Assembly: GCA_029433345.1 (NCBI GenBank)
Contig: JAQTHY010000001.1
Location: 496,001 to 560,000, forward strand
Length of the DNA: 64,000 nucleotides
Direction: 5' to 3'
DNA from: Orbaceae bacterium ESL0727
Lineage (GTDB): Bacteria > Pseudomonadota > Gammaproteobacteria > Enterobacterales > Orbaceae
Part shown: in pieces, positions 13,188 to 56,771 of the stretch
How the letters are laid out: every line of letters begins with the position of its first letter
Position numbering within the stretch: position 1 is the stretch's first letter
Translations under genes and position numbers: made by a program
The notes under the pieces: model-generated
The model's database searches: none
Told to the model about the DNA's origin: nothing
The model's input: the letters and a program-made list of their open reading frames with translations, nothing else

Positions 13188-13228
13188 TGGATGTTTCAGA
13201 ACTATACTACGTTTATGTCAAATTTTTG
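13188..13228 (+). repeat. Dispersed ~40-bp repeat, copy R1
   Basis: Begins TGGATGTTTCAGAAC, has a TATACT centre, and ends ACGTTTATGTCAAATTTTTG. All 41 bases are identical to copy R2 (15121-15161) in the same orientation, 1,933 bases away. The pair brackets the frameshifted surface-protein gene. Related copies at 24641, 35457, 52475 and 56632 lie in the opposite orientation. Confidence 0.9.
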
Positions 13229-13266
13229 TGGTTAAAGCCACGGTGACGTCGCCACTGACTGGTTAT

Positions 13267-13302
13267 AAAAGCGTGGCTTTCGCAACTGATAGCCACGCTT
13301 TT
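13267..13302. terminator. Bidirectional terminator-like hairpin after nadK/R1
   Basis: AAAAGCGTGGCT (13267-13278) pairs perfectly with AGCCACGCTTTT (13291-13302) over a 12-base loop, with A and U tracts on the two sides. The rest of the gap (13158-13523) holds R1 and short repeats of GGTAACCG and TTTATCACGGTAAC type at 13311-13372; no gene is seen. Confidence 0.75.
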
Positions 13303-13523
13303 ATCTATTCGGTAACCGTTGTGTCTATTAGGTAACCGCTTTATCGCGGTGATAGTTTTATCACGGTAACTGTTTTATCATAGTCATAATCCTCGCCGGC
13401 AATAGCTAGGGCACCGTATTATACTTTTTTTGCCCAACTTCGCCACGCTGCACGGCATAACCGTGGTGAGGTTTATCACGTGTTATGCTTTGCGCAGGCA
13501 CGGCGTTATCGTGTTAAGGGGAT

Positions 13524-14741
13524 TTACGCCGTATCGGCTAGCAAGCGACTAGGGGTGACACAAACAGGGACAAAGCTTGAGGCGGTTGCGCCGCTTGCGA
13601 CTCCAGCAGTGATGAAGCCATAGTCCAAAGAGATAGTATAAACATAGTTGCCGAAAAAATTATCCGTCCAATAAGAGCTTCTGCTCATAAAATCACTATT
13701 GATGTAGTAACGAGAAGCCATAGAATTTCCCCACTCAGCAAATAATCCCCCGCCAATTCGACGTTGGTAATTATTAGGTTGGCCTGGTAAACCACCTGTC
13801 CAACCGTTGCCATTAGCATTAGTGTACTCAGCTACGTTTGGAATCCGGTAATTACTCCCGTAGGTGTTTCGACAGTAGTTGGCATTATAAACGCCCGTCT
13901 CTCCACGTCTAGTAATAAACCATTTACTGATAGTAAAACTGTATATCTTATTGGTTTTATTGGTATCAGCGTATATTGTAAAGGTAGTTGGGACAGTCGT
14001 GTTGGCAGTGGCTGATGAATCCCCATACTTAGGTCCGGTTACGGTTATCTTAGCGATATTTGTACTGCCACCATTCTCTATCGTTAAATTTATGCCAGAG
14101 TTAGCCGGGCTTTTGTCATAACGTACTGTACTATAATTAGCTCCTGTACCTTGCATAATTAAGTTAAAAAATAGATTATTCGCCCCCATGGTTGGGAAAT
14201 TAGACGATGGGTTATTGATATTTTGCGGCTTAAAACCCTTAGTAGCATCCCATTGCGATGCAGGGCCATCCCAATTGTAATAAATATTAAGATTACCCAA
14301 AAGTCGACTCCCACTATACTGTAGATTAGGCTGTGCGTAACACGCAACGGGACCAATGACTTTTGGTATAATATAGTAAGTTGCACTGCTACCAGCATAA
14401 TTAGTGCTATTAGGTTTGCCATATTGAGAGCGTAATATGCTACATCAGCAAATGTTTGCCCCAAGCCAGGTAATTCGATAGGGTTAGCAGCAGTTGAGGT
14501 ATTATTTTGGTCATAACGGGTACCGTTAGACAGCTTAATTGCGAGTAGAGAGGATACATCGGTTGCTTTGGTGACACCATTATCAAAGGTTAAGTAAGGT
14601 GCGTTGCCCTCGATGGCATTAGCGGTCATTACTGAGAGCGCATTTACGTGAGAGGAAAGCAACGGACTAAGGAGAGATATAGCCGGAATTAAACAAAAAC
14701 TTTTGGCAAAAGTGTGTTTTTTTGTTTTTTGTTTTTATCAT
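13524..14741 (-). pseudogene. Frameshifted secreted/surface protein gene
   Basis: Three frames must be joined for one protein. It starts ATG (14741-14739) with MIKTKNKK. After an A7 run the frame must shift to continue FAKSFCLIPAISLL..., completing a signal peptide. It then runs ANAIEGNAPYLTFDNGVTKA to TFADVAYY near 14430, where a one-base deletion shifts into RSQYGKPNSTNYAG and on to 13524. The remainder is rich in Tyr, Asn, Ser and Gly, with a C-terminal module containing WTDNFF...SLDYG...FVPVCV that resembles lectin/FISUMP-like extracellular folds. Product unknown. Either a decaying gene, a phase-variable gene (A7 tract) or an assembly error. The two flanking direct repeats suggest an accessory islet. 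Confidence 0.7.
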
Positions 14742-15320
14742 GATACAACTTTTTCCTATAATTATAAATTTTTTAATTTTTATTTGTTATAAATTCGGCA
14801 TAGAATAGCAAAAAAATATTTATTTTCATAAAAATTAATTTGTTTTTTTGTAAAGAAATGTAAGGGATAGGTTTAGCGCATGCCTGTTGTATTTCTGTTT
14901 TATCATCGCAAAAGAGAAAGTATTTTTATAATATCTATCGTTAAAAACCGATTTAGACTTAAAAATAATTGAATTAAAAATTAATTCTATTGATTAGAAA
15001 AATTTTTATTTGAAAAAACATGAATAAAAAAATAAATACACCAAAAATCAATAGTAATAAGATTGAATCTTTTTGAGTAAAAAAATTCAATTTCCCCTAT
15101 ACGATTTGCATTATCTTATATGGATGTTTCAGAACTATACTACGTTTATGTCAAATTTTTGCGGGTAGATTGAAGTCCGCAATGCGAATGGTGAATCTAA
15201 ATACTATTTGCGTTAAGCACGGCATATATTAAAGACTGTGTATATTAAAGGCGATATGTATTAAGCACACAAGGGGCTTGATACCGTCGACAACGGTCGC
15301 CGACGGTATGGGGCAAGACT
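14742..15320. other. Very AT-rich non-coding stretch upstream of the surface-protein gene
   Basis: Long runs of A and T (14700-15090) and no credible reading frame. It holds repeat copy R2 at 15121-15161 and ends in a short GC-richer block (15255-15310: ACCGTCGACAACGGTCGCCGACGGTATGG), which can fold around ACCGTCG/CGACGGT and may serve as the lysS 3' structure. Nothing else is recognised. Confidence 0.6.
15121..15161 (+). repeat. Dispersed ~40-bp repeat, copy R2
   Basis: Identical over 41 bases to R1 at 13188-13228 and in the same orientation. It lies 160 bases from the lysS stop and about 380 bases upstream of the surface-protein start. It forms the right boundary of the 13.2-15.1 kb islet. 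Confidence 0.9.
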
Positions 15321-16847
15321 TTATTTATTTGGTCGCATAGCAGGGAATAAAATCACATCACGAATAGTATGGCTGTTAGTAAACAACATTACTGTACGAT
15401 CAATCCCAATGCCCAATCCTGCTGTCGGTGGTAAACCGTGTTCGAGTGCAATAATATAATCTTCGTCATAGAACATGGCTTCATCATCGCCGGCATCTTT
15501 CTGTTTTACTTGGTCGGCAAAACGTTGTGCTTGATCTTCCGCATCATTTAATTCAGAGAAACCATTACCGATTTCGCGTCCACCAATAAAAAATTCGAAA
15601 CGATCAGTGACAGCAGGATTTTTATCATTACGCCGCGCCAATGGCGATACTTCGGCTGGATATTCAGTAATAAAAGTCGGTTGGATAAGATTCGCTTCGA
15701 CAACTTCTTCGAAGATTTCAGTGACAACACGACCTAATCCCCACCCTTTTTCGAGCTGAATACCAATACTTTTTGCAATCGCGCACGCTTTATCAAAATC
15801 ATCCAGATCGGCATTATTTGTTTCTGGACGATAGTGGCAAATCGCTTCACGCATCGTCATTTTGGCAAACGGTTTACCAAAATCAAACGTATTGTCGCCG
15901 TATTGTACAACAGGATTACCGGTGACATTAATCGCTAAACGACGGAAAAGATTTTCAACCAGCACAATCAGATCTTTATAATCTGCATATGCCATGTACA
16001 TTTCCATCATAGTGAATTCAGGATTATGCCTTGGCGAAACACCTTCGTTACGGAAGTTGCGATTGATTTCAAATACTCTTTCAAAACCACCCACCACTAA
16101 TCGCTTTAAATAGAGTTCTGGTGCAATACGTAGATACATATCAATATCCAATGCATTATGATGCGTGATAAATGGTTTTGCTGAAGCACCACCCGGGATG
16201 ACATGCATCATTGGGGTTTCGACTTCCATAAAATGGTGTTCGAGCATGAAATTGCGAATTTCAGTGACAATTTGTGAACGGGCTCGGAAGGTATTACGTG
16301 ATTGTTGATTGGTAATCAAATCAAGGTAACGTTGGCGATAACGCATCTCTTGATCGGCAAGACCATGGAATTTATCCGGTAATGGGCGTAACGCTTTTGT
16401 TAATAGACGAACTTCTTGGCAATGAATCGAAAGTTCACCCGTTTTTGTCTTAAAGAGATAACCTTTAGCACCAATAATATCGCCTAAATCCCATTTTTTA
16501 AATTGTTCGTTATACACACCTTCGGGAAGATCATCACGCGTAACATAGAGCTGAATCTGTCCGCCAACATCTTGTAATGAAGCAAATGAGGCTTTCCCCA
16601 TGATACGACGCATCATCATACGCCCCGCGACAGTGACAATGATTTTATGTTCGATTAATTCTTCATTCGTTTTATCGTCATACTGTTGATGTAGCGACTG
16701 AGATATCGCGTCACGTCTAAAATCATTCGGAAAGGCGATACCTTGCTCACGAATCTGCACTAATTTTTCGCGGCGTGTTTTCAGCTCATTATTTAACTCT
16801 TCAAGTTGACTCTGCTGATTATGATTATCTTGTTGCTCAGTTGACAT
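15321..16847 (-). CDS. lysS: Lysyl-tRNA synthetase, class II
   Basis: Charges tRNA-Lys. The 508-residue protein has an N-terminal OB-fold anticodon-binding domain (about 65-175) and the class II catalytic core: motif 2 region [20 protein letters not shown] and motif 3 [13 protein letters not shown] near the end. Length agrees with E. coli LysS (505). It follows prfB by 33 bases in a conserved prfB-lysS operon. Confidence 0.97.
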
Positions 16848-16880
16848 AGTTTTACCTTATTTTTTATCAAGACGCGGCAT

Positions 16881-17979
16881 TTAGAGACCCGCTTTTAAAC
16901 TTTCGACAATAAATTGATCCAAATCGCCATCTAATACCGCCCCAGTATTACGGGTTTCAACGCCGGTACGTAAATCTTTAATCCGTGAATCATCTAATAC
17001 ATAAGAACGAATCTGACTTCCCCAGCCAATATCCGATTTATTTTCTTCCATTTGCTTCTTTTCAGCATTTTTTTTCTGCATTTCCAGATCATACAGTTTA
17101 GCTTTTAACTGTTTCATCGCTTGATCTTTATTGCTATGCTGAGAACGATTATTTTGACATTGTGTCACAATGCCAGTAGGAATATGGGTAATACGTACCG
17201 CAGATTCGGTACGGTTAACATGCTGACCACCTGCCCCAGATGCACGATACACATCAATCCGTAAATCAGCAGGATTGATATCAATGGCAATATCATCATC
17301 AATTTCTGGATAGACAAATACAGATGCAAATGAAGTATGCCGACGATTCCCTGAGTCAAATGGGCTTTTGCGAACTAATCGATGTACACCTGTTTCAGTA
17401 CGTAACCAGCCATAAGCATAATCACCGGTGATTTGGATGGTAGCCGACTTAATGCCTGCGACATCACCATCAGAGACTTCTATCACACTGGTCGTAAAAC
17501 CTTTTGCTTCGGCCCAGCGCAAATACATGCGTAAAAGCATTTCGGCCCAATCTTGTGCTTCCGTGCCACCTGAACCGGCTTGAATATCGAGATAACAATC
17601 AGCACTATCCACATCACCAGAGAACATGCGGCGAAATTCCAATCCAGCCAGTTTTTTTTCAAGCTGTTCGAGTTCCAGATTGGTTTCATCAAAGGTTTCT
17701 TGATCATCAGCTTCGACAGCTAAATCGAGTAGGCCTTGAACATCTTGCAAACCTTGCATTAATGCATCGATAGTACCAATGACTTCATCAAGCGCTACAC
17801 GTTCTTTGCCTAAAGCTTGTGCTTTTTCGGGATTGGCCCACACTTCAGGCTGTTCTAATTCCGCATTAACTTCTTCTAGGCGCTCTTTTTTCAGATCATA
17901 GTCAAAGATACCCCCGAATCACTTGTGTGCGCTCGGTAAGTTCAGCAATTTTGGTGGTAGTAGGATTAATTTCAAACAT
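16881..17979 (-). CDS. prfB: Peptide chain release factor 2 (programmed +1 frameshift)
   Basis: Recognises UGA and UAA stop codons. Translation starts at ATG 17979 ([19 protein letters not shown]), meets an in-frame UGA at codon 26 and shifts +1 into the long frame ([18 protein letters not shown]...). The joined product is 365 residues, exactly the E. coli length. The GGQ peptidyl-hydrolysis motif ([17 protein letters not shown]) and the RF2-specific SPF tripeptide ([15 protein letters not shown]) are present. It is the first gene of the prfB-lysS operon. Confidence 0.96.
17901..17916 (-). promoter_or_regulatory. prfB autoregulatory frameshift site
   Basis: On the minus strand the site reads CGGGGGTATCTTTGAC: an internal Shine-Dalgarno-like GGGGG, three bases, the slippery CUU codon and the UGA stop followed by C. 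The textbook site is AGGGGGTATCTTTGAC, so only the first base differs. When RF2 is scarce the ribosome slips +1 and completes RF2, giving negative feedback. Confidence 0.95.
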
Positions 17980-18312
17980 GATTTTATTTTATCTTGTAAA
18001 ATTGTGATGATATACGCCTTATCCTTAACTGTCAGGAAAAAGAATCAACAAAGCTTAGCGCGATGTTCTGTGAACCGTTATCTTTTCCCATATTGTATCG
18101 GTGATAGTCAATCGTACCAAACAATCATTTTGCAGGATAATGGGTATAGTCATTAACATAACTTATTTTGTAGGGGAGTTATTGTAGCGGATTTAGGCAA
18201 TAGTTAGCAATTTTTTGGGGCGGTTTTTTAAAAATGTTTTGTGGCTATCGATAGTGAAAATGTTAATAAAATAACGTGCATCGAGCCTAAAATGTAATAC
18301 GAAGATAATAAA
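17980..18312. other. Non-coding gap between sodA and prfB
   Basis: Contains the prfB promoter region on the minus strand and no supported gene. A short GC-rich hairpin is absent. The only clear structure is the sodA terminator at its distal edge. Nothing else is recognised. Confidence 0.5.
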
Positions 18313-18343
18313 AATGGCACACAGCTAAAAACTGGATGCCATT
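18313..18343 (-). terminator. sodA terminator
   Basis: AATGGCA (18313-18319) pairs with TGCCATT (18337-18343); an inner CAG/CTG stem extends it. On the minus strand the hairpin is followed by TTTTTATT, a good intrinsic terminator 32 bases after the sodA stop. Confidence 0.75.
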
Positions 18344-18374
18344 GTAATGAGAATAGTTGTGCTAATCGTTACGA

Positions 18375-18998
18375 TTATTGTGCTTTAGCATATAATTCGG
18401 CGACTTTATCCCAATTAACTACATTCCAAAACGCACCAATATAATCTACGCGGCGATTTTGATATTTTAAATAATACGCATGTTCCCACACATCTAATGC
18501 TAAGATTGGTGTACCAAATACACCGGCATATTTTTCGCCCATTAATGGTGTATCTTGATTAGCCGTTGAAACAATCGCTAATTTATTTTTCTGTACTACT
18601 AACCATGCCCAACCTGATCCAAAACGACCAGCTGCCGCTGCGGCAAATTTTTCTTTAAACGCATCTACTGAACCAAAGGTTTTTTCGATATCAGCACGCA
18701 ATTCGCCTTTTAGTTCTGTACCAACTTGTAATAATTCCCAAAAAAGGCTGTGGTTAACATGACCACCAACATTATTTTTAATCGCGGTAAGTTTATCTGC
18801 AGGGACTTGATCAAGATTTTGTAATAATTTTGCTGGATCCCAATTTTGTAGCTCAGTTGGTAGTGTTTCGACGACGACATTAGCATTATTAACATAAGTT
18901 TGATGATGCTTATCATGATGGAAATGCATAGTTTCAGCATCGATATACGGTTCTAATGCATCATAAGCATAAGGTAATGGAGGTAAAGTATAAGCCAT
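18375..18998 (-). CDS. sodA: Superoxide dismutase, Mn type
   Basis: Converts superoxide to hydrogen peroxide and oxygen in the cytoplasm. The N-terminus [18 protein letters not shown] and core [25 protein letters not shown] and [16 protein letters not shown] carry the four metal ligands (His, His, Asp, His). The wording is closer to E. coli SodA (Mn) than SodB (Fe), including GGHxNH and the Gln before DTPLM. 207 residues. AAGGAG lies just upstream of the start. Metal use is inferred, not proven. Confidence 0.93.
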
Positions 18999-19352
18999 GG
19001 ATTGCTCCTTAATATGTGAGGTAGGATTGACTTTTTTGATTTACAACTTGTTATTGCAACTGATTATTGCATAACTATCAACTAATTGAACAATTGGTAT
19101 TATCTAATAAATAGTAAAGTATACCCACCATTCCAAATTCTCTCAAACTATTATTTGAATAGTTTGCAGCTATCTATACAATCTTTACAACCTGAATCGG
19201 ACTATCGAATAGGATCACGACTGTATAGTGATTTATCGTTATTGGATAAAATTATGCGATTTCCGCTTTTTATATAATCAATTGAACACTATTTTTTAAA
19301 ATATGCTGGACAATATGCTCATTTATGCGTAATATCTCGCCCTGTTCTATAT
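18999..19352. other. Non-coding gap between sodA and tRNA-His
   Basis: Carries the sodA promoter region and the tRNA promoter. The only distinct structure is a perfect inverted repeat, CAAACTATT (19144-19152) with AATAGTTTG (19158-19166) and a 5-base loop; no U-tract follows, so it could be an operator. No gene is recognised. Confidence 0.5.
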
Positions 19353-19429
19353 GGTGGCTATAGCTCAGTTGGTAGAGCCCTGGATTGTGATTCCAGTTGT
19401 CGTGGGTTCGAATCCCATTAGCCACCCCA
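19353..19429 (+). tRNA. hisR: tRNA-His (GTG)
   Basis: A 77-base cloverleaf starting GGTGGCTATAGCTCAG with anticodon GTG in GGATTGTGATTCC, T-loop GGTTCGAATCC and an encoded CCA end. It appears identical to the E. coli hisR product as I recall it. The terminal G pairs across the extended acceptor stem, as expected for tRNA-His. Confidence 0.98.
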
Positions 19430-19464
19430 TTTATTCTTATATATTCTTGAATCTGCAGTCAAAA

Positions 19465-19541
19465 CGGCGAGTAGCGCAGCTTGGTAGCGCAACTGGTTTG
19501 GGACCAGTGGGTCGGAGGTTCGAATCCTCTCTCGCCGACCA
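19465..19541 (+). tRNA. proM: tRNA-Pro (TGG)
   Basis: A 77-base cloverleaf starting CGGCGAGTAGCGCAGC with anticodon TGG in GGTTTGGGACC, T-loop GGTTCGAATCC and an encoded CCA. It resembles E. coli proM almost base for base. It lies 35 bases after tRNA-His, probably in one transcript. In E. coli these two sit in argX-hisR-leuT-proM; the Arg and Leu genes are absent here. Confidence 0.98.
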
Positions 19542-19950
19542 ATTTTCCCTTAACTGTCTTCCAATTCCCGCTTTGCGCCATTTTTATTATCTGCCTACCA
19601 TCACTTATTGTTGTTCGTACTATGATCCTTACTATAATCCGCTTACTATAATTCTTAGTTATCACGTTATTATTTATAAAAATATTTTTTATTTGTTTTG
19701 TCACGCCATTTTGTTTTAATAGAGCAATAGTTCTGAATAGTTCTGTAATGGTTATCTCTCGCAATCTGGTTATTTTGTTCTGTTGAATGCTAATAGGTTA
19801 CCTGGCTAAGCCCTATAATACCTTTCGATCTTCTACATTTCATAGACGACAGTCGAAAGAACAACGCTATCACTTGGAAGAGTAACAAGTAGATATGCTA
19901 AACGCTTTATTTGAAAATATTATTTATAAAACAGTTAATTAGGAAATATT
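19542..19950. other. Non-coding gap between tRNA-Pro and asd
   Basis: AT-rich. A run with the loose repeat CTTACTATAATcc occurs at 19628-19656. CTTTCGA (19822-19828) can pair with TCGAAAG (19853-19859) upstream of asd. No lysine-riboswitch signature is seen, and no gene is recognised. Confidence 0.5.
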
Positions 19951-21069
19951 ATGAAAAATGTCGGTTTTATTGGTTGGCGTGGAATGGTCGGATCGGTGCT
20001 GATGCAACGAATGGTTGAAGAGCATGATTTTGACTATATCAATCCTATTTTCTTTTCAACCTCTCAAGTAGGACAAGCTGCCCCGACTTTTGGTAGCAAC
20101 CACCATAACAGCAAGATAAGTAGCCTGCAAGATGCAACGAATCTTGAGGCATTAGCCGCATTAGATATTATTGTCACATGCCAAGGTGGCGATTATACCA
20201 CGGATATTTATCCAAAACTCAGATCGATGGGTTGGCAAGGTTATTGGATTGATGCAGCATCAACGCTACGCATGAAAGATGACGCTATCATCGTGCTGGA
20301 TCCTATCAATAAAGCAAACATTGATGCAGGACTAAATAATGGCATAAAAACCTTTGTGGGGGGTAACTGTACTGTCAGCCTTATGTTGATGTCATTAGGT
20401 GGACTGTTTGCGGCCGATCTGGTTGATTGGGTATCGGTTGCCACTTACCAAGCTGCTTCAGGTGGCGGCGCTAGACATATGCGTGAATTACTCCTTCAGA
20501 TGGGTATGTTATATAACGATGTCGCCCCCGAACTACAAAATCCGCATTCATCTATCTTAGAGATCGAACGCAAAGTGACACAAAAAATGCGTGATGGTAC
20601 ATTACCAACCGATAACTTTGGCGTTCCCCTTGCTGGTAGTCTTATTCCTTGGATTGATAAAGCATTAGACAATGGTCAAAGCCGTGAAGAATGGAAAGGC
20701 CAAGCAGAAACAAACAAAATTTTAGGCACAACGCATACCATTCCTATTGATGGGCTTTGTGTGCGTGTCGGTTCACTACGCTGTCATAGCCAAGCTTTTA
20801 CCATTAAGTTGAGAAAAGATATTAGTGTACCTGAAATCGAAAAAATACTTGCCGCAAATAATGATTGGGTAAAAGTGATCCCAAATGATCGTGAACTTTC
20901 CATGCACGAACTGACGCCTGCAGCGGTCACCGGTACCTTAACCACACCGGTAGGTCGTTTACGCAAACTCAATATGGGGAAAGAATACCTTTCTGCCTTT
21001 ACGGTTGGTGATCAGTTATTGTGGGGAGCAGCAGAACCACTCCGTAGAATATTACGTATCTTAGCTTAA
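19951..21069 (+). CDS. asd: Aspartate-semialdehyde dehydrogenase
   Basis: Reduces aspartyl phosphate to the semialdehyde, the branch precursor for Lys/DAP, Met and Thr. The N-terminal NADP site ([18 protein letters not shown]) and catalytic [15 protein letters not shown] (active-site Cys near residue 137) are intact. 372 residues compared with 367 in E. coli; it belongs to the Gram-negative subfamily. Single gene with its own terminator. Confidence 0.97.
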
Positions 21070-21091
21070 TAATTTTTATATTTCCTAACAT

Positions 21092-21125
21092 CGGGTGATA
21101 GGCTGTATAACAGCATTCTCACCCG
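21092..21125 (+). terminator. Hairpin downstream of asd
   Basis: CGGGTGA (21092-21098) pairs with TCACCCG (21119-21125), and an inner GCTG/CAGC stem continues it. The U-tract is weak (TATTTG). Probable asd terminator. Confidence 0.6.
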
Positions 21126-21319
21126 TATTTGCTAAGCTTACCATGGTGATTGCCTGCAATTCTTGGGCTGGACTTGAAATTTTGCTTTTATTGGTTAGAC
21201 GCTATTTTTTTATCCGGTTTTTTATTCCAATTGTTATCGCCGCTTTTTATTTTTATTTCGATTATGCGTTTTGCTTGTTAGACTACTCTTGCTTATTTTT
21301 ATCAATTAATTTTTATTGA

Positions 21320-24563: not shown

Positions 24564-24640
24564 GCAATCACCTCTCTTTATCACTGATTTATTAAATTAT
24601 TTATTAATGATATTTTGCCTACTTAATTCTAAATATTATA

Positions 24641-24669
24641 CATAAACGTATAGTAACTCTGAAACATCC
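24641..24669 (-). repeat. Dispersed ~40-bp repeat, copy R3
   Basis: Reads CATAAACGTATAGTA then ACTCTGAAACATCC on the plus strand, that is, the reverse of R1. The TGACA-side arm is replaced by TATA and the poly-A arm is lost, so this copy is shorter. It lies upstream of nagB and ybeD. Confidence 0.8.
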
Positions 24670-24855
24670 TAATTTTATTTTACTTACGTTATGCAACTGT
24701 TATCACAACAACTATTACTCACAACAATTATCACAACTCATTCACCATTTTGCGCATTTTTACATCACGATTACTTGAAGTCTCAAAAAATGGCTATATA
24801 TGTTTGTAACATAGATAATCATACTATACAAACCAAATCTGAGAACAATAAAACT

Positions 24856-35456: not shown

Positions 35457-35494
35457 GAAAAATTAGACATAAACGTATACTAATTCTGAAACAT
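35457..35494 (-). repeat. Dispersed ~40-bp repeat, copy R4
   Basis: Plus strand reads AAAAATTAGACATAAACG, then TATACTAATT, then CTGAAACAT. It differs from the consensus at a few centre positions and ends in TT where others have CC. It is bracketed by an almost perfect 20-base direct repeat. Confidence 0.85.
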
Positions 35495-35629
35495 TATAAA
35501 AATACCTTGCTAAAATGATTTTGTATAACTTAAAAAACCGCTGTAAATACAGTAGCTTCTGGCTTTGCAATGTTGCTTACCTTATTTATCACGGCAACGA
35601 TTAAAAATCAAAAAACTGATTGAAATGGG

Positions 35630-35646
35630 TAGTAGTTCTGAAAGAT
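35630..35646 (-). repeat. Truncated copy R5 of the dispersed repeat
   Basis: TAGTAGTTCTGAAAGAT matches the CTGAAACAT half of the consensus with one change; the TGACATAAACG half is missing. It is the same orientation as R4, 135 bases away. Confidence 0.5.
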
Positions 35647-35938
35647 TTTAACAAAGAAGGTAGCGCTTTTTATCTTGTTTGCAAGCTAACATGGCAAACT
35701 TAAATTTACCTAGCTCATGTAGCATAAAACACGTCACAGAAAACACGCAGCACACAACATAAAGTATAAAACAGGAGCAGATTAAAACTTGGCTGTCTAC
35801 TACATACCCTTGATGATGGCTGACAGAATAAAAAAACAACCACGTTGAGGGGTAACAAGTATATAATGGTCAGTAAGTTATTTTATTTACATAAATACGC
35901 GAAGCAACGCGCTTCCAATAATCAGATTCCACAGCCAT

Positions 35939-36580
35939 ATGAAACAAACTATTCGCGTGCAAATTTTAGAGCGATTAAAAGCACATATCAAAGATCCGAC
36001 AACTGAGCTGGTCTATCAAACCCCCTTTGAGCTACTCATCGCCGTCGTGCTTTCTGCACAAGCGACTGATGTAAGTGTCAATAAAGCGACCAAGCCCCTT
36101 TTTGCTGTTGCAAATACGGCTGAACAAATTTTGGCCTTGGGCATTGATCAATTAAAACAGTATATTCGCACAATTGGCCTTTATAATAGTAAAGCGGCTA
36201 ATATCATAAAAACCTGTCAAATATTAGTCGATAACTATCATGGTGAAGTGCCCGAGGATTTTGATCGCTTAATCGCTTTACCCGGTGTTGGTAGAAAGAC
36301 AGCTAATGTTATTTTAAATACCGCGTTTGGCTGGCCAACTATTGCGGTCGATACACATATCTTTCGCGTCTGTAATCGTACCGGTTTTGCGCCAGGGAAA
36401 ACCGTCGAAGCGGTAGAGCAAAAATTATTAAAAGTGGTACCTGACGAATATAAACTTAACTGTCATCACTGGCTTATTTTACATGGACGTTATACCTGCA
36501 TTGCACGTAAGCCACGTTGTGGATCTTGCGTGATCGAAGATTTATGTGAATATAAAGATAAAGTCTATCCTGAATCTTAA
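35939..36580 (+). CDS. nth: Endonuclease III
   Basis: DNA glycosylase/AP lyase removing oxidised pyrimidines. The helix-hairpin-helix LPGVGRKTANVIL with its catalytic Lys (near residue 120), the catalytic Asp in AVDTHIFRV, and the C-terminal iron-sulfur loop CIARKPRCGSCVIEDLC (C-x6-C-x2-C-x5-C) are present. 213 residues compared with 211 in E. coli. It is isolated from its usual rsx neighbours. Confidence 0.97.
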   Translation: MKQTIRVQILERLKAHIKDPTTELVYQTPFELLIAVVLSAQATDVSVNKATKPLFAVANTAEQILALGIDQLKQYIRTIGLYNSKAANIIKTCQILVDNYHGEVPEDFDRLIALPGVGRKTANVILNTAFGWPTIAVDTHIFRVCNRTGFAPGKTVEAVEQKLLKVVPDEYKLNCHHWLILHGRYTCIARKPRCGSCVIEDLCEYKDKVYPES

Positions 36581-37168: not shown

Positions 37169-37390
37169 TACTCGTCGATATTTATGCTATTGCCTTTTGG
37201 CACTCTGTTATGGACTGTTTTATAAACTATATGTCTAAACCATAGCCATAAAGCATGCTATAAATGAGTCATAAACGATTCATCAACTATTCTATAAATA
37301 ATTTCATAAACTGTTATTCTATAACGAATGGAACAATGCTGTTTTTATAAGGGACATATGTCTAATCGATGAGCAAAGGAAAGGCTAAAA

Positions 37391-37490
37391 TAAAAAAACC
37401 AGCCTAACCTAATTAAGCTGGTAAACATTGGAAGCAATGTGAGCAATGTCATACTTTTATCAGAAGTCTAGCGACGATCCAACAAAGTAC
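37391..37490 (-). ncRNA. ryhB: RyhB iron-responsive small RNA
   Basis: On the minus strand an approximately 100-base transcript runs from about 37490 to 37391. Bases 37450-37430 contain GACATTGCTCACATTGCTTCC, written here only to mark the conserved RyhB seed: its parts GACATTGCTC and ACATTGCTTCC match the E. coli RyhB core exactly. A terminator hairpin (ACCAGC / GCTGGT, 37398-37422) with a run of seven U follows. Upstream lie -35/-10 elements and a Fur box. RyhB pairs with Hfq-bound targets (sodB, sdh, iron-sulfur genes in E. coli) to spare iron. There is no competing reading frame. Confidence 0.92.
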
Positions 37491-48793: not shown

Positions 48794-49546
48794 TTAGTCT
48801 TGCTGTTTATTGTTATATTCCTGTTGGAATTCAACTAATAAACAGTGTTCCTCATCAGTCAGAGCTAGATTTGCCAGAAGATCTTCTCTTCTTAACCAAG
48901 TTCGTCCTAGTGACTGTTTCAATCGCCAGCGACGAATTTCTTTATGGTGACCAGACATTAATACGTCAGGTACCGCCATATTATCTAACACCTCAGGTCG
49001 TGTATAGTGTGGGTAATCAAGCAAACCATTAACAAAAGAATCCTCTTGTGCCGAGTCTTCATGATGTAACACGCCAGGAATAAACCTTGCTAATGCGTCA
49101 ATCATTGTCATTGCAGGTAGCTCACCACCACTTAACACATAATCACCTACTGACCATTCTTCATCAATCTCAGTCTGGATTACGCGTTCATCTATACCTT
49201 CATATCGCCCACAAATTAGAATCAACTTCTTATTTTGGGATAATTCGCAAACACCTTGTTGGTTTAATTTGCGACCTTGCGGAGATAGATAAATTACTTT
49301 TGTATCTTCACCTATTGTTGCTTTTGCTGCATGAATCGCGTCACGTAACGGCTGTACCATCATCAGCATGCCGGGACCGCCGCCATAAGGCCTATCATCG
49401 ACAGTCTTATGCTTATCATGCGTAAAATCACGCGGGTTCCAATACACTATGTCTAACAATCCGTTTTTAACTGCTCGACCTGTCACACCGTAATGAGTAA
49501 TTGCTTGGAACATTTCTGGGAAAAGGCTAATAATGCCAATTCGCAT
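48794..49546 (-). CDS. trmD: tRNA (guanine-N1-)-methyltransferase TrmD
   Basis: Methylates G37 next to the anticodon to keep frame. SPOUT-fold trefoil knot motifs [13 protein letters not shown] and [16 protein letters not shown], plus [12 protein letters not shown]. 250 residues (E. coli 255). In the conserved operon between rimM and rplS. Confidence 0.98.
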
Positions 49547-49583
49547 ACTCTCACCTTCTTATTACTAATTCATAAATGACTCA

Positions 49584-50111
49584 TCAAAAAGCAGGATCCC
49601 AATCGACTTCAATCATCTTTGCCGAAAGATCAACTTTTTTAATGAATTGCTCTTCGACAAAAGGAATCAAACGTTCTGTTGCTCCAAATGCATCTTTTAG
49701 ATTCGCTTTTACTACCAACACATCATTAGAACCGGTTTCGAGAAGCTCAGTTACCTGACCTAAATCATAACCGTTTACTGTTTTCACTCGACAGCCTATC
49801 AGATCTTTCCAGTAAAAATCACCATCACTGAGTTCTGGCAAATTTCCTGAATCGACATACACTTCACTATTCGTTAATGTGTTAGCCGCATCACGATCAT
49901 CAATACCTTTAAGTTTCACCAGCATGTCTTGATTATGTGGCTTATAGCTTTCTACAACAACTTCCCGCCATATACCCATTTGTTGGATATACCAAGGGGC
50001 ATAGTCAAAAATAGTTTCCGGAGACTCTGTAAACGAAAAAATCCTGAGCCATCCACGAATTCCGTAGCTGGAACCAAACTTACCTACGACAATCAGATTC
50101 TCAGTATTCAT
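49584..50111 (-). CDS. rimM: 16S rRNA processing protein RimM
   Basis: Assembly factor for the 30S head. N-terminal RimM domain ([20 protein letters not shown]) and C-terminal PRC barrel ([16 protein letters not shown]...[13 protein letters not shown]). 175 residues, near E. coli (182). Second gene of the operon. Confidence 0.97.
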
Positions 50112-50189
50112 CTTATTACAGCACTATTTTTAGTTACTTAATTTTTAACAAACGTCTACTTAATTAGTGATCAATTTAATGCACTAATA

Positions 50190-50438
50190 TTAAGCAGCTT
50201 TTTGTACTTGTTTGATCAATGAACTAACACGATCAGAAACAGTTGCACCCAAACCAACCCAATGATTTACGCGATCAAGATCTAAACGTAATTCTTCGGC
50301 TTTACCGCGCGCAATTGGATTAAAAAAGCCAATACGTTCAATAAAACGACCATCACGTGGGTTACGGCTATCAGTAACAACTACTTGATAAAATGGGCGT
50401 TTTTTAGAACCGCCGCGACTTAAACGAATAGTTACCAT
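50190..50438 (-). CDS. rpsP: 30S ribosomal protein S16
   Basis: 82-residue S16 with start [18 protein letters not shown] and ERIGFFNP. First gene of the operon, 78 bases before rimM. Confidence 0.98.
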
Positions 50439-50800
50439 AATATCCTCTTAAATTAAAATGTTCTTTTTTCTATCCAACATGGACAAATTAAAAGCCCAAG
50501 AATTATACTCTTTTTAGCTAAAAGTGCAATGACTCTTTCGGGCAGATATCCGTTACCATTCAATATGATATTTATTTGTAGACAAGTTGCCCGCAAAGAT
50601 GCCAATAACTTGTTAGCACGGAAAAAAGATTTAGAAAATTTACTTTTATAACTCATTCTTTTTTCGTGATTCATCGCAAAAAATCGCTATAACATCGCTG
50701 TATTGCTTAGATTTTAGGCAATAATTCAGCGTAACAGGTATATACTCCCATAGCATAAATGTGGATAATGAACGATATTTTGACAAAAGGATGCCTGACT
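50439..50800. other. Non-coding gap between rpsP and the HAD phosphatase
   Basis: Contains the divergent promoters. CGTTACCATTCAA at 50551-50563 resembles CGTTACCCTTCAA at 35220-35232 and CGTTACCCTTTAA at 10441-10453, a possible minor dispersed motif. No gene is supported. Confidence 0.4.
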
Positions 50801-51613
50801 ATGTATAAATTGATTGCCTGTGATTTAGATGAAACCTTACTTGATGACCAGAAAAATGTTCCTGAAGCTAATCGCCAAGCCATTAAGCAGGTTACTGCAC
50901 AAGGTGTGAAATTTGTACCAACAACTGGGCGAGGCTTTACTTCTGTGCAAAATACATTGCAGGAAATTGGCTTAGCTAAGCAACCTGATGAATATGTTAT
51001 CTCATTCAATGGTGGCATTATTACCGAAAACGCAGAGAATAAAATTCTTTCTTGCCATGGAATTTCTTTTGATCAAGCTAAAACTGTTTTTGATATTGGA
51101 TTACAACATAATGTTTATATGCATATTTTTTCATTAGAAAATAATTATATGTACAATTTCCCTACTTTTGAAAAACAGTATTTACGTAATCGAATCCATG
51201 ACTATGTAGAGATTTCACCAGAAACGTTTACTTCATTAAAAAATGAACATTTTATTAAGGTGATTTTTGGTTGCGAAAATTTTCGCTTATTGCAAGATAT
51301 TGAAAGAACGTTACCTGATGAAATCAGATCACAATATGCCATTAGTTTTTCATCTAATCGTTACTTAGAATTTAATCAAAAGGGTGTTACCAAAGGCGAA
51401 GGTATTACGCGACTCGCCCAAAAGTTAGGTATGACACTGGATAATGTCATTGCGATTGGTGATAACAATAATGATATTCCGATGTTGCGCAAAGCAGGAT
51501 TTTCGGCCGCGGTACAAAACGCCACCGATGAAGTCAAAAAAGAGGTCGATTACGTCTGCCAAGCAACCAATAACCAATCTGCTGTTGCCGAGGTCATTAA
51601 GAAATTCTTCTAA
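50801..51613 (+). CDS. HAD-superfamily (Cof-type) sugar phosphatase
   Basis: Cof/YidA-like hydrolase probably acting on sugar phosphates. Motif I is CDLDETLLD at residues 7-15, motif II TGRGF, and motifs III/IV appear as KGEGITRLA and GDNNNDIPML near residue 223. A C2-type cap lies between. The ATG at 50801 follows AAAGGA and fits the family; a longer start at 50759 is unlikely. Next to PTS genes, it could dephosphorylate hexose phosphates. Confidence 0.9.
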   Translation: MYKLIACDLDETLLDDQKNVPEANRQAIKQVTAQGVKFVPTTGRGFTSVQNTLQEIGLAKQPDEYVISFNGGIITENAENKILSCHGISFDQAKTVFDIGLQHNVYMHIFSLENNYMYNFPTFEKQYLRNRIHDYVEISPETFTSLKNEHFIKVIFGCENFRLLQDIERTLPDEIRSQYAISFSSNRYLEFNQKGVTKGEGITRLAQKLGMTLDNVIAIGDNNNDIPMLRKAGFSAAVQNATDEVKKEVDYVCQATNNQSAVAEVIKKFF

Positions 51614-51762
51614 TTGATCATATCGCTATTGCCGATACGTTAACAATCCCCGCTGGGTGGTAATCGGGCAACATTCCATCATCCCTTATCTACTGCTACA
51701 TCGAGCTGAAAACAGTCAGTAAAATGTAGCAAAAGTGGGCTTTTAGCATTTAATGATCAGTA

Positions 51763-52137
51763 TTAATCACGCGCTTTCTTTTTCACGATAGCTCTTTTTA
51801 ATACGTCAAAAAAGCCTAATGATCTTACCATTTTTTGACTATCGATATAAACGCGAATAGCCTTTAGCACTTTTTTAGGCTCTTTTGACGAGAACGTAAA
51901 CGTGCCATTTTGCTTAGTCTGAATAGCATAACGTGGAATCCAACGCCCACCTAATAGCACTGATGCTGTCACAAACTCAACTTCACTCCATGGAATTTGG
52001 ATATACTTACGCATATCACGTTTATGATAAAACTCAAAGGCTTTATCTCCAATCATAATTTGACCATATTCAGCAAAACCAACAAATGCGGTTGCTTTAA
52101 TGGTTAAATCAACTTTGGTATTTAAAGATTGTACCAT
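51763..52137 (-). CDS. manO: ManO-type DUF956 protein
   Basis: DUF956 family, usually the last gene of mannose PTS operons in lactic acid bacteria and probably regulatory or accessory. From ATG 52137 it starts MVQSLNTKVDLTIKA and has KFIQIPW-like YIQIPWSEV, GGRWIPRYAIQT and GTFTFSSKEPKKV, all characteristic. About 124 residues. An earlier in-frame start at 52167 is weaker. It shares strand with manZ but is separated from it by a hairpin and repeat copy R6. Confidence 0.88.
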   Translation of the reverse strand: MVQSLNTKVDLTIKATAFVGFAEYGQIMIGDKAFEFYHKRDMRKYIQIPWSEVEFVTASVLLGGRWIPRYAIQTKQNGTFTFSSKEPKKVLKAIRVYIDSQKMVRSLGFFDVLKRAIVKKKARD

Positions 52138-52434
52138 GCTAACACTCATTACCGTTAAAAATCGCATGCACTACTTATTATCATTTAATGCGGGTGATTT
52201 TATCTTAAATTCAACTATTACGTCGACTTTTATCGGCCGCTGTAAAAGTGAGACAAATTTTATATGATTCCGTTTTATAACACATGCTTTCGTTATTGCT
52301 TATTGGGAGAAAAGCGCAGATATGATTTATCATAACCAAGTGATAACAGCTTTTCACTGCTGCCAAGAAAACGATAATACGATGTTTCAGCAATGAGCAC
52401 AGTAAATTTACCTAATATGATCAATATAAATAAA

Positions 52435-52480
52435 TCAAAACAGCGATAAGTTTGTCGTTAATTCACCATCGCTGTTTTGA
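52435..52480 (-). terminator. Terminator-like hairpin after manZ
   Basis: TCAAAACAGCGAT (52435-52447) and ATCGCTGTTTTGA (52468-52480) are perfectly complementary over 13 bases with a 20-base loop. On the minus strand it lies 52 bases past the manZ stop and leads into a TTTTGA tract. Its right arm overlaps the start of R6. Confidence 0.65.
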
Positions 52481-52508
52481 CATAAACGTATAGTAGTTCT
52501 GAAACATC
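52475..52508 (-). repeat. Dispersed ~40-bp repeat, copy R6
   Basis: TTTTGACATAAACG, then TATAGTAG, then TTCTGAAACATC. It is the same orientation as R7 (56632-56668) and, with it, brackets manZYX and murQ (about 4.1 kb). It separates manZ from manO. Confidence 0.9.
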
Positions 52509-52531
52509 GTTATAAGAATATACAGCTGTTT

Positions 52532-53467
52532 TTATAAAAGACCAATCACATGGCCTACAATACCAACCACAAATAGACCAATGATGATAACAATTGGTGA
52601 TACTTTCTTACGTAATAACCACATACAGAAAAAAGTTAATAGTAATGGTACCAATCCAGGAATTAATTGATCCAAATTATTTTGCAATGTAGTGACCTTT
52701 TCTTGAGTCAGTGATAGACCACTTTGCAATTGCGCTAATGCTTTTTGGATACCTTCAGCACCTACTGGTAATGAATTCCAATCAATATAAGCCCCATGAT
52801 CCAATTTAACCGTGGACACAACTGGCTGGAATTTAATCGATACCCACCTTTGCACCAATGCCGCTAGGACAAACATCCCTAAAATAGAGGCACCTTTTGT
52901 GATTTTTTGGAGTAAACCGCCAGATAGATTATCCGTAATTCTAGAACCGGTACGGTAACCAAATTCTTGGGTATACCACATAAAGCCCCAACGAATAATA
53001 TTCCATAATAAAAAGAATAAAATTGGCCCAAGTACATTGCCACCTAATGCTAATGAAGCACCTAAAGCGCCTAACATTGGTCGAACAGTAAACCAGAATA
53101 CCGGATCACCCACACCGGCTAACGGTCCCATCATCCCCACTTTTACACCTTGAATGGCCACATTATCAACAGATGCACCATTAGCACGTTCTTCTTCCAG
53201 AGCTAAGGTCACACCAAAAACAGGTGAAGCTAAGTAAGGGTGAGTATTAAAAAACTCGAGATGGCGTTTTAAAGCAGCAGATCGATCTTCTTTAGTTGTA
53301 TATAATTTTTTAATAGCAGGGATCATCGCATAGACCCAACCGCCATTTTGCATACGTTCATAGTTCCAAGAACCTTGTAAAAATGTTGAACGCCATGCCA
53401 CGGCGAGACGATCCTTTTTAGTTAATTGGATTCGATTACTGTTATTTACTTGCATATTATCTGTCAT
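52532..53467 (-). CDS. manZ: Mannose-family PTS component IID
   Basis: IID subunit of a mannose-type PTS channel. Starts MTDNMQV after GGGGAGAG; core SWNYERMQNGGWVYAMIPAIKKLY and GPLAGVGDPVFWFTVRP are typical, with C-terminal hydrophobic segments. About 311 residues; E. coli ManZ is 283-286, and the insertion with WNSLPVGAEG matches the Lactobacillus form. Third gene of manXYZ. Confidence 0.93.
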   Translation of the reverse strand: MTDNMQVNNSNRIQLTKKDRLAVAWRSTFLQGSWNYERMQNGGWVYAMIPAIKKLYTTKEDRSAALKRHLEFFNTHPYLASPVFGVTLALEEERANGASVDNVAIQGVKVGMMGPLAGVGDPVFWFTVRPMLGALGASLALGGNVLGPILFFLLWNIIRWGFMWYTQEFGYRTGSRITDNLSGGLLQKITKGASILGMFVLAALVQRWVSIKFQPVVSTVKLDHGAYIDWNSLPVGAEGIQKALAQLQSGLSLTQEKVTTLQNNLDQLIPGLVPLLLTFFCMWLLRKKVSPIVIIIGLFVVGIVGHVIGLL

Positions 53468-53484
53468 TTTATCTCTCCCCACTC

Positions 53485-54285
53485 TTAGTAATCATTCAAA
53501 ATATCATCGAGTGGATCACCTTTATTACCACCGTTAGATGAATTGCCACGTTCTGACAGGTTTAAATAGATTAATGCTAATGCAATACCTAATGCACCCA
53601 ACGCGATCAAGGTCAATTGAGAAATCGCTGCAACAACAAAACCGATAATAAAAAATGGCCAGACTTCGCGATTTGCCATCATGTTAATGACCATCGCATA
53701 ACCCACTGCTACCACCATACCACCACCAATAGCCATACCGGCAGTCAACCATTGTGGCATCGAATTTAATGCATCTTTTACTGCTTCTGCTGGAATAAAT
53801 AATAATGCTGCGGCAGGAATAGCAATACGCAAGCCTTGCAAGCAGAGACAAAAAATTTGTAAAAATTCAATACGGCGAATATTGCCTTGTTCAGCTGCCG
53901 CATCCATCATATGGACCAATGGTACAGCAATAGTTCGCACAATCATTGTTAAGAATAATCCGGCAACAGCTAAAGGAATCGCGACTGCAATTGCAGTGGC
54001 AACACCCGATACTCCTTGCCCGCCGAGGACAAGAATAATCGCTGAAGCTACCGACGCTAATGCTGCATCAGGCGCTACTGCTGCACCGATATTTGCCCAA
54101 CCTAGCGCAATCATCTGTAAAGATCCACCCAAAACTACCCCTGCTTCTAAATTACCTGTAACAAGGCCAATTAGCGAACAGGCTACTAAAGGTTGATGAA
54201 ATTGGAATTGATCCAAAATACCTTCCATACCTGCTAGAAAGGCAACCACTATCACTAAAAGGATAGCTACAATCGATAACGTCAT
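53485..54285 (-). CDS. manY: Mannose-family PTS component IIC
   Basis: Membrane channel subunit IIC with about seven hydrophobic segments. It contains GVVLGGSLQMIALGWANIGAA, GQGVSGVATAIAVA-type motifs and a C-terminal Gly/Asn-rich extension ending DPLDDILNDY, a tail typical of lactic-acid-bacterium IIC-Man and absent from E. coli ManY. 266 residues. Ends 17 bases before manZ. Confidence 0.94.
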   Translation of the reverse strand: MTLSIVAILLVIVVAFLAGMEGILDQFQFHQPLVACSLIGLVTGNLEAGVVLGGSLQMIALGWANIGAAVAPDAALASVASAIILVLGGQGVSGVATAIAVAIPLAVAGLFLTMIVRTIAVPLVHMMDAAAEQGNIRRIEFLQIFCLCLQGLRIAIPAAALLFIPAEAVKDALNSMPQWLTAGMAIGGGMVVAVGYAMVINMMANREVWPFFIIGFVVAAISQLTLIALGALGIALALIYLNLSERGNSSNGGNKGDPLDDILNDY

Positions 54286-54306
54286 AATATAACCCCTTAA
54301 TTAAAA

Positions 54307-55275
54307 CTAATTCTTTTGTTGGGCTAACTCTTCTTTAGCCTTTTTCAATAAGTCATCCATATTACTATTTGAATCACTTGGCACTTTACGCACATCAAAT
54401 TTAACATGTTTTTCTGCCAATTTTTCAAATGTGTTCACATCCGAAGCATCCATGGATAATACCTTGTTAACCATTACTTTGCCAACTGAATGCGCCATCG
54501 ATCCCACATTGATGACATTAATATCAACACCACCTTCAATCACCCGTAACACATCTTGTGGATTTTCGAATAACAAGAGTGCTTTAGTATTGCCAAAGCG
54601 CGCATCGTTCGCCACCGCAATCAATTTACTAATCGGGATGACATTCGCTTTTACCCCTGGAGGCGCTGCTTGTTCGATAAGTTTTTTCCTTAATTCATCT
54701 TTTGCAACAGAATCCGAAACAACAATAATACGATTAGTGTTAGTGGATTTTGTCCAAGATGTAGCAACTTGTCCATGTAATAGACGTGAATCGACACGTG
54801 CTAACACAATTTGCATTTTACCATTGCCAACTGCCGCACCTGAAGGTGTTGTATTATGGTGTACTGCGGTAACTTTTTCTTCATGTGGAACTGTCGTACG
54901 CACACCTTCTTTAGCCACTTCTAAAATAGCTATCGCTAATTCTTTGGCCGAGGTTATTGATTCCCTTGAAGAGTAAGCTTCAATCAACATGGGTAGATTT
55001 AATCCGGCAACAATAGCCCATTTATCATGCTCACCACACAAGTTATTTGCTTGATTAAATGGTGTCCCCCCCCATAAATCCACTAAGAATAACACTTCAT
55101 CTGCATTATCAAACGAGGCTATTGCTGTTTGCATCCGTTCTCTCAAGCTATCTGGACTATCACTTGGGTGTAAAGTTACTGCTTTCACATTTTCTTGTTC
55201 CCCAAAGATCATTGTTCCCGATTGTAGAATACCTTCTGCAAACTCACCATGAGTTGCCAGAACTATTCCTACCAT
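54307..55275 (-). CDS. manX: Mannose-family PTS component IIAB
   Basis: Cytoplasmic phosphocarrier with IIA (residues 1-~130, active His in LATHGEFAEG) and IIB (from about 160, phosphorylated His in VDSRLLHGQVATSW) joined by a polar linker. LFLVDLWGGTPFNQAN matches the lactobacillus ManL/ManX wording. The ATG at 55275 follows GGGGGG; the longer start at 55290 is less likely. 322 residues. First gene of manXYZ, 131 bases downstream of murQ. Confidence 0.94.
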   Translation of the reverse strand: MVGIVLATHGEFAEGILQSGTMIFGEQENVKAVTLHPSDSPDSLRERMQTAIASFDNADEVLFLVDLWGGTPFNQANNLCGEHDKWAIVAGLNLPMLIEAYSSRESITSAKELAIAILEVAKEGVRTTVPHEEKVTAVHHNTTPSGAAVGNGKMQIVLARVDSRLLHGQVATSWTKSTNTNRIIVVSDSVAKDELRKKLIEQAAPPGVKANVIPISKLIAVANDARFGNTKALLLFENPQDVLRVIEGGVDINVINVGSMAHSVGKVMVNKVLSMDASDVNTFEKLAEKHVKFDVRKVPSDSNSNMDDLLKKAKEELAQQKN

Positions 55276-55406
55276 GTTATTACCCCCCATTAATTTATAA
55301 TTTTATTTATTGCTATTTTTACTCAAAGAAACTATTGAGTCGACTATTATCGCTAGAAAAGCGAACAATGATCACAAAACTGAGTTTATAAAAACGAATT
55401 TTAGGC

Positions 55407-56330
55407 TCAATCAGTTAAGCTAACGCTATTATTTTGTATCGCTTGGCGAAGCAAACCGTTATTTTTTGCTAATAGCTGTTTTGCCTTTTTTGCATCTAAA
55501 TTCGCTAAGATCATTAAGATGGCTGTTTTGCAATGCCTTTCACATTGCTGTAACGCCGCGATTGCTATTTCCCGATTACATTCGGTTGCTTGCATGACAA
55601 TAACAATTTGCCGCTCAACTAATTTAGCATTAGTCGCTTCTACATCAACCATCAAATTGCCATAGACTTTACCAATTTTAACCATGCTAGCAGTAGTCAG
55701 CATATTAAGCACTAATTTTTGTGCCGTGCCGGCTTTCATGCGGGATGACCCAGTTATCACTTCGGCACCCACTACTGGCGTAATAGCAATATCAGCTAAA
55801 GTAATCATTGGCGCTTGCGGATTACAACAAAGACTAATAACTCTCGCGCCTAATGATTGGGCAAATCGCATTCCACCCATAACATAAGGTGTCCGACCAC
55901 TTGCTGCAATGCCCACTAAAACATCATTGGCGGTAAAAGCGAGGTTTTTTAAGTCTTGCACAGCTAATTCTGGATTATCTTCGGCATTTTCGACTGCCTT
56001 AAAAATAGCTGTCGATCCACCCGCTATCACACCAACAACTTGTTCCATGGGTGTGCCATAGGTTGGTGGGCATTCACTGGCATCTAAAATACCTAATCGC
56101 CCCGAGGTACCTGCCCCTAGATAAATCAAACGGCCATGATTTAAAAACGCCTGACTAATAACATCAACTGCCTGCGCAATTTGCGGTAATACTGTTTCGA
56201 TAGCGAACGGAACTTGTTTATCTTCATTATTGATAATTTTTAAGATATCGATAGTTGTACATGTGTCAAGATTCTCACTATGCGGATTACGGCTTTCAGT
56301 TACCATATTGGCTAAATTAATGTGACTCAC
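55407..56330 (-). CDS. murQ: N-acetylmuramic acid 6-phosphate etherase
   Basis: Cleaves the lactyl ether of MurNAc-6-P to GlcNAc-6-P and D-lactate; GlcNAc-6-P then enters nagA/nagB. SIS-domain protein with [20 protein letters not shown] near residue 71, [28 protein letters not shown] and [16 protein letters not shown]. 307 residues compared with 298 in E. coli. There is no adjacent murP; the neighbouring PTS is manXYZ. Confidence 0.95.
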
Positions 56331-56771
56331 GTTTTATTAATCCTTTATTAATCTTTCTTAAAGAATATTCCACCATTTTATGGAAAAACTGAATGATTAT
56401 ATACTTATTCCAATTAAATACGTAAAAATCTATTTATCAGTTATCAGTTATCAAATAATGTGCCATAAACCTCTGCATATTTACTTTCCCTTTAATAACT
56501 GTCAATAGAACAAAATAATCACGTTAAAGATGATTAAGACTGCGTGATCTGCTAGCAAAGCGATTACTTACTTATCTTTACTAATAGATGATGCGCCTCT
56601 ATTAATATTTGATATTCAAAGCCGTGTAAATAATTTGACATAAACGTATGGTAGTTCTGAAACATCCAAATAAGATTCTCTTTGCTTTATAACAAAAAAG
56701 AGCATACAGAGGCCTTTTTTTCCGCTAAAATCTACCCATCAATTTTGTGTTAATTGTTTACCGGAGATCAC
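56331..56771. other. Divergent murQ/slyD control region
   Basis: On the minus strand a TATAAT element at 56397-56402 may serve murQ, and AACTGAT occurs in tandem near 56440-56455. Repeat copy R7 lies at 56632-56668. A GGAG ribosome site precedes slyD. No gene is supported. Confidence 0.5.
56632..56668 (-). repeat. Dispersed ~40-bp repeat, copy R7
   Basis: AATTTGACATAAACG, then TATGGTAG, then TTCTGAAACATCCA. It is the right boundary of the manZYX-murQ segment and the same orientation as R6. Confidence 0.9.

Follow-up and report, generated by a model that had tools for sequence, protein, structure and literature searches.

A two-part repeat between core genes

The window analysed here, a stretch of 64,000 nucleotides (G000:C1:496001-560000) from the 2.15 Mb genome of Orbaceae bacterium ESL0727 (G000), contains seven copies of a dispersed intergenic repeat that had been singled out in an earlier note on this DNA. 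All seven places are present on re-reading the sequence, and the orientations, the intergenic placement and the variable centre ascribed to the copies are borne out; the copy that had been called truncated is actually of full length but mixed, its right half being as in the congeneric genome G004. The named neighbours of the copies comprise core genes, namely those for NAD kinase, lysS, nagB, tyrS and the operon of the mannose phosphotransferase system (PTS), together with ybeD. The features are given below, with the coordinates of the repeat copies being those of the 33-bp cores.

13188..13220, plus strand: repeat copy, consensus with centre TATACT, 3′ of the NAD kinase gene (12279-13157)
15121..15153, plus strand: repeat copy, consensus with centre TATACT, adjoining lysS (15321-16847, minus strand)
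24638..24670, minus strand: repeat copy with 5 differences from the consensus, CAGAGT variant, in the gap between nagB (minus) and ybeD (plus)
35465..35497, minus strand: repeat copy with 5 differences from the consensus, CAGAAT variant, in the gap between tyrS (minus) and an open reading frame (ORF) at 35939 (plus)
35617..35649, minus strand: mixed repeat copy, left half of G000 type, right half ACTACCCATTTCAATCA identical to that of a G004 copy
52478..52510, minus strand: repeat copy with 2 differences from the consensus, 3′ of the mannose PTS IID gene; other dialects stand at the orthologous site of congeners
52532..53482, minus strand: PTS mannose-family IID gene, the anchor for the orthologous-site comparison
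56636..56668, minus strand: repeat copy, consensus with centre TACCAT, in the gap between ORFs at 55407-56330 (minus) and 56754-57347 (plus)

Taken by itself, the window gives hardly more than chance for the left half of the repeat with three mismatches allowed: six matches against a mean of 2.14 in shuffled sequence, with 1 of 100 shuffles reaching six. It is the two-part pattern across the genome that is decisive for the reality of the repeat. The search of the genome and its relatives with the consensus, as the earlier note had proposed, gave 107 matches to TGGATGTTTCAGAAC-N6-ACGTTTATGTCA in G000 with up to three mismatches (52 and 55 on the two strands) and none to the reversed-pattern control; a sequence profile built from 104 copies gave 154 matches at E<=1. 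At the same limit of three mismatches, the G000 form of the repeat is absent from 59 relatives, 34 of them congeneric.

The site has a rigid layout of ATGTTTCAGAAC, six variable bases and ACGTTTATGTCA, flanked by T-rich sequence. The 104 copies that were read with their flanks, of about 154, align without indels, and in this alignment ATGTTTCAGA and CGTTTATGT are almost invariant. T-rich stretches lie at positions -5 to 1 and 36 to 40, the most variable positions are 14-20 and the triplet at 18-20 comes chiefly from a small menu (CTA, GTA, ATA, TAC, CCC and CCA). The two halves are direct repeats of one another, GTTTCAG and GTTTATG, offset by 18 bp, and inspection of the aligned copies revealed no inverted arms.

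Gene context and spacing

By ORF calls made for this analysis, 100 of the 104 copies are intergenic, the remaining four lying in small or edge ORFs. Where both neighbours are known (n = 97) the copies are found in convergent regions in 27 cases, divergent in 21 and tandem in 49, which is near random. The spacing was examined in G000 only, on the 143 sites among the matches listed for contig 1, and proved more regular than random: the coefficient of variation is 0.70, against 0.99 for random placement (0 of 2000 simulations as even) and 0.96 when the draws came from intergenic slots with the window as their model (0 of 1000). Among the same 143 listed sites the closest pair on opposite strands is 371 bp apart, and there are no close inverted pairs, an arrangement that is common in the DNA uptake sequences (DUS) though not defining of them. 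The density of copies is about 72 per Mb. Replication-strand bias was considered and none is apparent by GC skew, with 42 and 39 copies on the two strands in the GC-skew-positive part of the genome.

A cluster of prophage genes for a contractile tail (sheath, tape measure, baseplate and fibres) lies at G000:C1:1431200-1451199 (L305), within the fifth largest repeat-free gap. As 7 of its 22 ORFs were scanned and it is the sole gap scanned of the five largest, the idea of word-free prophages is an anecdote. At L098, L099, L102, L103, L104 and L105 there are genes for a family of paralogues, about 400-540 amino acids long and probably secreted (ALSATTANAIQGTPPYLTFDGG...), one of which was scanned and had no Pfam match; several of these genes are followed by the repeat and by simple repeats of the AACCAAAT type.

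Species dialects among congeners

The G000 profile gives weak but many matches in several congeners, which on reading prove to be species spellings: TTGTCAAGAAGTTTCAGAAATACCCTACGTTTAAGTATAAAA in G001, TTTGTCAAAAAGTTTCAGGAGTGCACTACGTTTATGTATAAAA in G009 and, in G023, one beginning GTTTCCTGAGA. A general 30-bp pattern matches 118 times in G000, 112 in G023, 79 in G015, 78 in G001, 65 in G003 and 49 in each of G002 and G011, with 0-2 matches in 21 others of the 35 congeneric genomes and none within the genus for the reversed control. The 33 matches in G014, a genome 74% complete with 5% contamination, are not relied on. Outside the genus (163 genomes) the pattern is not above chance, with three matches against six for the control.

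G004 is without the general pattern and carries a bare 12-mer, TGTTTTAGGGTT, 341 times (reversed control, 1), on balanced strands (163/178); each of the other 34 congeneric genomes has 0-5 occurrences. In 200 kb of G004, with a coding share of 86%, 20 of 30 copies are intergenic and 10 lie in ORFs. The flanks of these 30 copies are weakly conserved, with a T-rich patch at the position of the right-hand GTTT of G000, and a strict core with T-rich flanks is seen both in G000 and in the G004 word. G004 is likely to be the sister species of G000, which it adjoins in a midpoint-rooted tree of one locus from 30 genomes. A further dialect, AAGTTGAGGAGCG, has 55 sites in G026 and 0-7 in other genomes, and there are at least seven spellings within the one genus, with a shared core.

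The congeneric genomes are mostly of 2.2-3.1 Mb, with a GC content of 30-40% in the loci fetched. These values, together with a DNA identity of 74-76% to Proteus, Klebsiella and E. coli across a ribosomal region and with a RyhB match in the window, would fit Gilliamella (Orbaceae). In G029 (L256-L265) a clustered repeat, CCCTGTATACAC, present 13 times in 200 kb, may be a clustered regularly interspaced short palindromic repeat (CRISPR) array, and a dispersed 10-mer, TGTTGTGGCA, occurs at 10 separate places.

Change in place at orthologous sites

At the PTS IID site, 29 relatives' loci were fetched, of which all except G018 and G024 were readable; automatic motif flags in G013 and G031 were judged to be false. 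A recognisable word is present in 9 of the 27 readable relatives (G020, G023, G003, G011, G005, G002, G001, G004 and G032) and a decayed one in G007 and G015. G004 carries the G004 word here and G032 the G026 word, which, by coordinate comparison, is also at the PTS site of G026 itself. G020 and G003 read GTTTCAGGAGA and G023 reads GTTTCCTGAGA, with the surrounding stem common to all three, and GTTTCCTGAGA starts all 20 of the G023 copies among the matches listed, of 112. Because the stem is shared with G020 and G003 while the spelling is that of the G023 dialect, the G023 site has shifted with the genome-wide dialect without having moved. This is the one clear case of a dialect changing by point mutation in place; a few others are probable.

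A copy at the lolC start has been retained by 12 congeners, G014 included. In a 140-kb stretch of G011, set against its partly alignable counterpart in G002, three sites were found, all with homologous sequence in both genomes; one has decayed in G011 and one is imperfect in both.

Putative uptake machinery

A secretin of the PilQ family scores above the cut-off in 33 of the 35 congeneric genomes, the two misses being 59% and 81% complete. The G000 secretin is matched best by the model of the DNA uptake porin HofQ, at 455.9 bits, below the curated cut-off of 554. Its gene is the last of a four-ORF block whose first ORF is PilN-like and of 160 codons; at that place G026 has a PilN-like ORF of 306 codons (L308 7587-8507).

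A candidate DNA uptake word

Taken together, these features leave an even chance that the repeat is a recognition word akin to the DUS, with species dialects, in a further lineage. This reading is suggested by the fixed core, the AT-rich flanks, the use of both orientations, the intergenic preference, the even spacing, the dialects and the mutation in place. All of these are marks of the DUS and of the uptake signal sequences (USS) in the available parts of PMC3630211, PMC1939737, PMC7811141 and PMC12616744, and uptake words are described for the Neisseriaceae and Pasteurellaceae (PMC1939737 and PMC7811141, likewise in part). The competence machinery is assumed to have a DNA receptor at the cell surface that prefers DNA bearing the word, and homologous recombination of the imported DNA would slowly turn near-matches into the word wherever the sequence is unconstrained (molecular drive). 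The result would be intergenic copies in large number, nearly identical, regularly spaced and in either orientation, that are not the descendants of transposition. Were the preference of the receptor to shift in a lineage, most copies would follow in place, giving rise to species dialects. The genus might then possess a self-recognition code for DNA, its word (core, spacer and right half) rewritten in place at most sites in each species and ranging from a 12-mer to about 45 bp; that this is either an independent uptake lineage or an analogous undescribed system is a proposition that is evenly balanced.

In the open-access literature, with the genus assumed to be Gilliamella, no report was found that links 'DNA uptake sequence' to Gilliamella or 'uptake signal sequence' to Orbaceae, and none of the repeat itself, a weak negative but consistent with the suggestion in the earlier note that it is undescribed; the part of PMC11389375 available treats natural competence in general terms only. 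If the reading is right, the presence in one genus of seven or more spellings, among them a long two-part form and, in a related species, a short one, would make it possible to test the origin, lengthening, shift and loss of such words, and their action as species barriers to recombination.

The DUS of the Neisseriaceae, as the available parts of PMC3630211 and PMC12616744 describe them, are similar in having species-conserved dialects with a common core, many copies and a place in permissive intergenic DNA. They differ in being continuous, up to about 13 nt in length and present in 943 to 4265 copies, with frequent inverted pairs at terminators, whereas the Orbaceae word is of 12 to about 45 bp, has tens to hundreds of copies and, in G000, no opposite-strand pair closer than that noted above among the matches listed. 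The USS of the Pasteurellaceae share with it a strict core with AT tracts, a discontinuous form, even spacing (as in G000) and, in the overall counts of G000 and G004, freedom of orientation (PMC7811141, PMC12616744 and PMC1939737, in the parts available). The repeat had been thought far sparser than DNA uptake sequences, but the density in G000 falls within the 31-913 copies per Mb given for the USS in the accessible part of PMC12616744. On the other hand the words themselves are unrelated, and, as far as these partial sources go, there are two main USS types against the many spellings of this genus, and about 65% of Haemophilus influenzae USS lie in ORFs whereas the G000 copies are nearly all intergenic.

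A number of observations weigh against an uptake word. The information content, about 65 bits over about 45 bp (column values summed by hand, from copies selected at five or fewer mismatches), is far above that of the DUS or USS, and there is some non-local coupling between positions in the G000 copies. Cutting the G000 chromosome at 1.36 Mb, a point picked post hoc, gives a strand bias with p=0.001, and the G026 dialect is strongly strand-biased along its chromosome (25:2 against 4:24, the break again being chosen post hoc). G001 has tandem arrays of the word with a locus-specific spacer, at periods of 108 to 455 bp; these (L137, L143, L217, L220 and L222) hold 3 to about 8 copies, partly counted by eye, and one adjoins the transfer-messenger RNA gene. 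At the PTS site 16 of the 27 readable relatives are without a recognisable word, in G001 and G023 the copy at lolC departs from the dialect of its own species, and at the eight G000 sites that could be compared in a stretch of G004 the G004 word is at the same gene end in four, one of them reversed, by a hand tally. No such word was found in 200 kb each of the low-count species G029 and G006, a negative that is weak because the same word finder overlooked the known G001 word. The presence of the secretin does not follow word copy number, species with few words keeping it. Directly upstream of the G000 PilN-like gene there are phage genes, presumably Mu-like (L307 9422-11394, at about G000:C1 1967400-1969400), namely one for an activator of late transcription (phrog_532) and two PHROGs to which no function is assigned; together with the short PilN-like ORF, these suggest that uptake in the G000 strain may be impaired and its words relics. 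It is the long word, the G001 arrays, the G026 strand bias and the secretin in species with few words that hold confidence in an uptake word at an even balance and no higher.

Alternative explanations

It is unlikely, but conceivable, that the repeat is the binding site of an intracellular protein that organises, segregates or replicates the chromosome, with a specificity that has drifted between species and with sites that are selected and evenly spaced. The even spacing in G000, the rigid direct-repeat layout (GTTTCAG and GTTTnAG at an 18 bp offset) and the strand bias of the G026 dialect would all suit such a protein. The lack of a GC-skew strand bias in G000, notwithstanding the post hoc cut, and the balanced strands of G004 would not, nor would word counts that range from 0-2 to 341 between congeners; by simple arithmetic, about 150 sites would need about 15 bits rather than about 65.

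A mobile repeat of the miniature, non-autonomous type, spread separately within each species by some unidentified enzyme, is a more doubtful explanation still. It would account for the high identity across about 45 bp, for the tandem arrays of G001 and for positions that are mostly unshared, since, of 30 G001 loci sampled, just 2 in addition to the lolC site have the same gene on either side as one of the 104 G000 copies read. After removal of 15 of these 104 copies as segmental duplicates, however, a shared centre among the remaining 89 brings no greater likeness than different centres do, either at the other variable positions (0.597 against 0.595) or in the flanks (0.288 against 0.285). There is weak coupling of the class of the centre to 4 of 21 positions at p<0.05 (-2, -1, 5 and 14, of which 14 borders the centre) and between 21 of 465 position pairs at p<0.005, chiefly adjacent ones, with (-5,33), (23,38) and (33,42) as well. 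The G000 copies do not appear obviously to be copies of copies, and there is little sign of a mobile element. The form in G004 is a 12-bp word, the dialect at the PTS site has changed in place and the sites of the close pair G002/G011 are shared, with no insertion at any of the three that could be compared. A Y1/RAYT transposase is absent from G000 and was found in one of the 35 congeneric genomes (G009), being missing from the other 34. The solo end of a mobile element that had been envisaged is not supported by these two results; the description of a dispersed two-part repeat with neither transposase nor long inverted repeat stands, now with about 150 copies.

Terminal inverted repeats, such as those of a miniature inverted-repeat transposable element or an insertion-sequence end, are not present in the aligned copies. 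Nor was an imperfect palindrome or hairpin seen in the sequence, the centre not pairing with the flanks; an RNA hairpin between the two was rejected on permutation z values of -1.3 to 1.1 in G000, G001 and other congeners, and the absence of hairpin covariation also counts against a mobile repeat. The repetitive extragenic palindromic (REP) elements and their paired form, the REPINs, resemble the repeat in being short, extragenic, present in hundreds of copies and at times in composite arrays, but the Orbaceae repeat is non-palindromic and hairpin-free and the RAYT gene was not found in G000 (REP and REPIN features from the available part of PMC3116915). The earlier note had looked to Rfam for a known element, and no Rfam family matches the repeats of the window or those of five G001 loci. 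Core sites of tyrosine recombinases, such as dif, have two conserved parts flanking a variable centre of about 6 bp. The parts of the Orbaceae repeat are direct, not inverted, and lie in about 150 chromosomal copies; the earlier likening to a recombinase core or the solo end of a mobile element is not favoured by the lack of inverted arms, by a centre nearly independent of the other positions or by the bare 12-mer of G004.

A terminator element was also considered and set aside: at the PTS site of some relatives the centre forms one arm of a terminator stem, but this is local only. Targeting to terminators was likewise rejected, as the T content to the left of the site does not vary with the orientation of the gene upstream (5.63 against 5.74); gene ends show no more than a mild excess of strong hairpins.

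A transcription-factor or promoter element, to which the often -10-box-like centre (TAnnnT), the copy at the lolC start in 12 congeners and the rarity of convergent regions among the loci of the relatives (3 of the 70 that have both neighbours, lolC being counted up to 12 times) might point, is very improbable, with 27 of 97 G000 copies in convergent regions and directions near random, and with the G009 centre, TGCACT, making a poor -10 box.

Elsewhere in the window, a match to the RyhB small RNA lies at 37390-37458 on the minus strand, barely above the Rfam threshold (56.4 against 55 bits).

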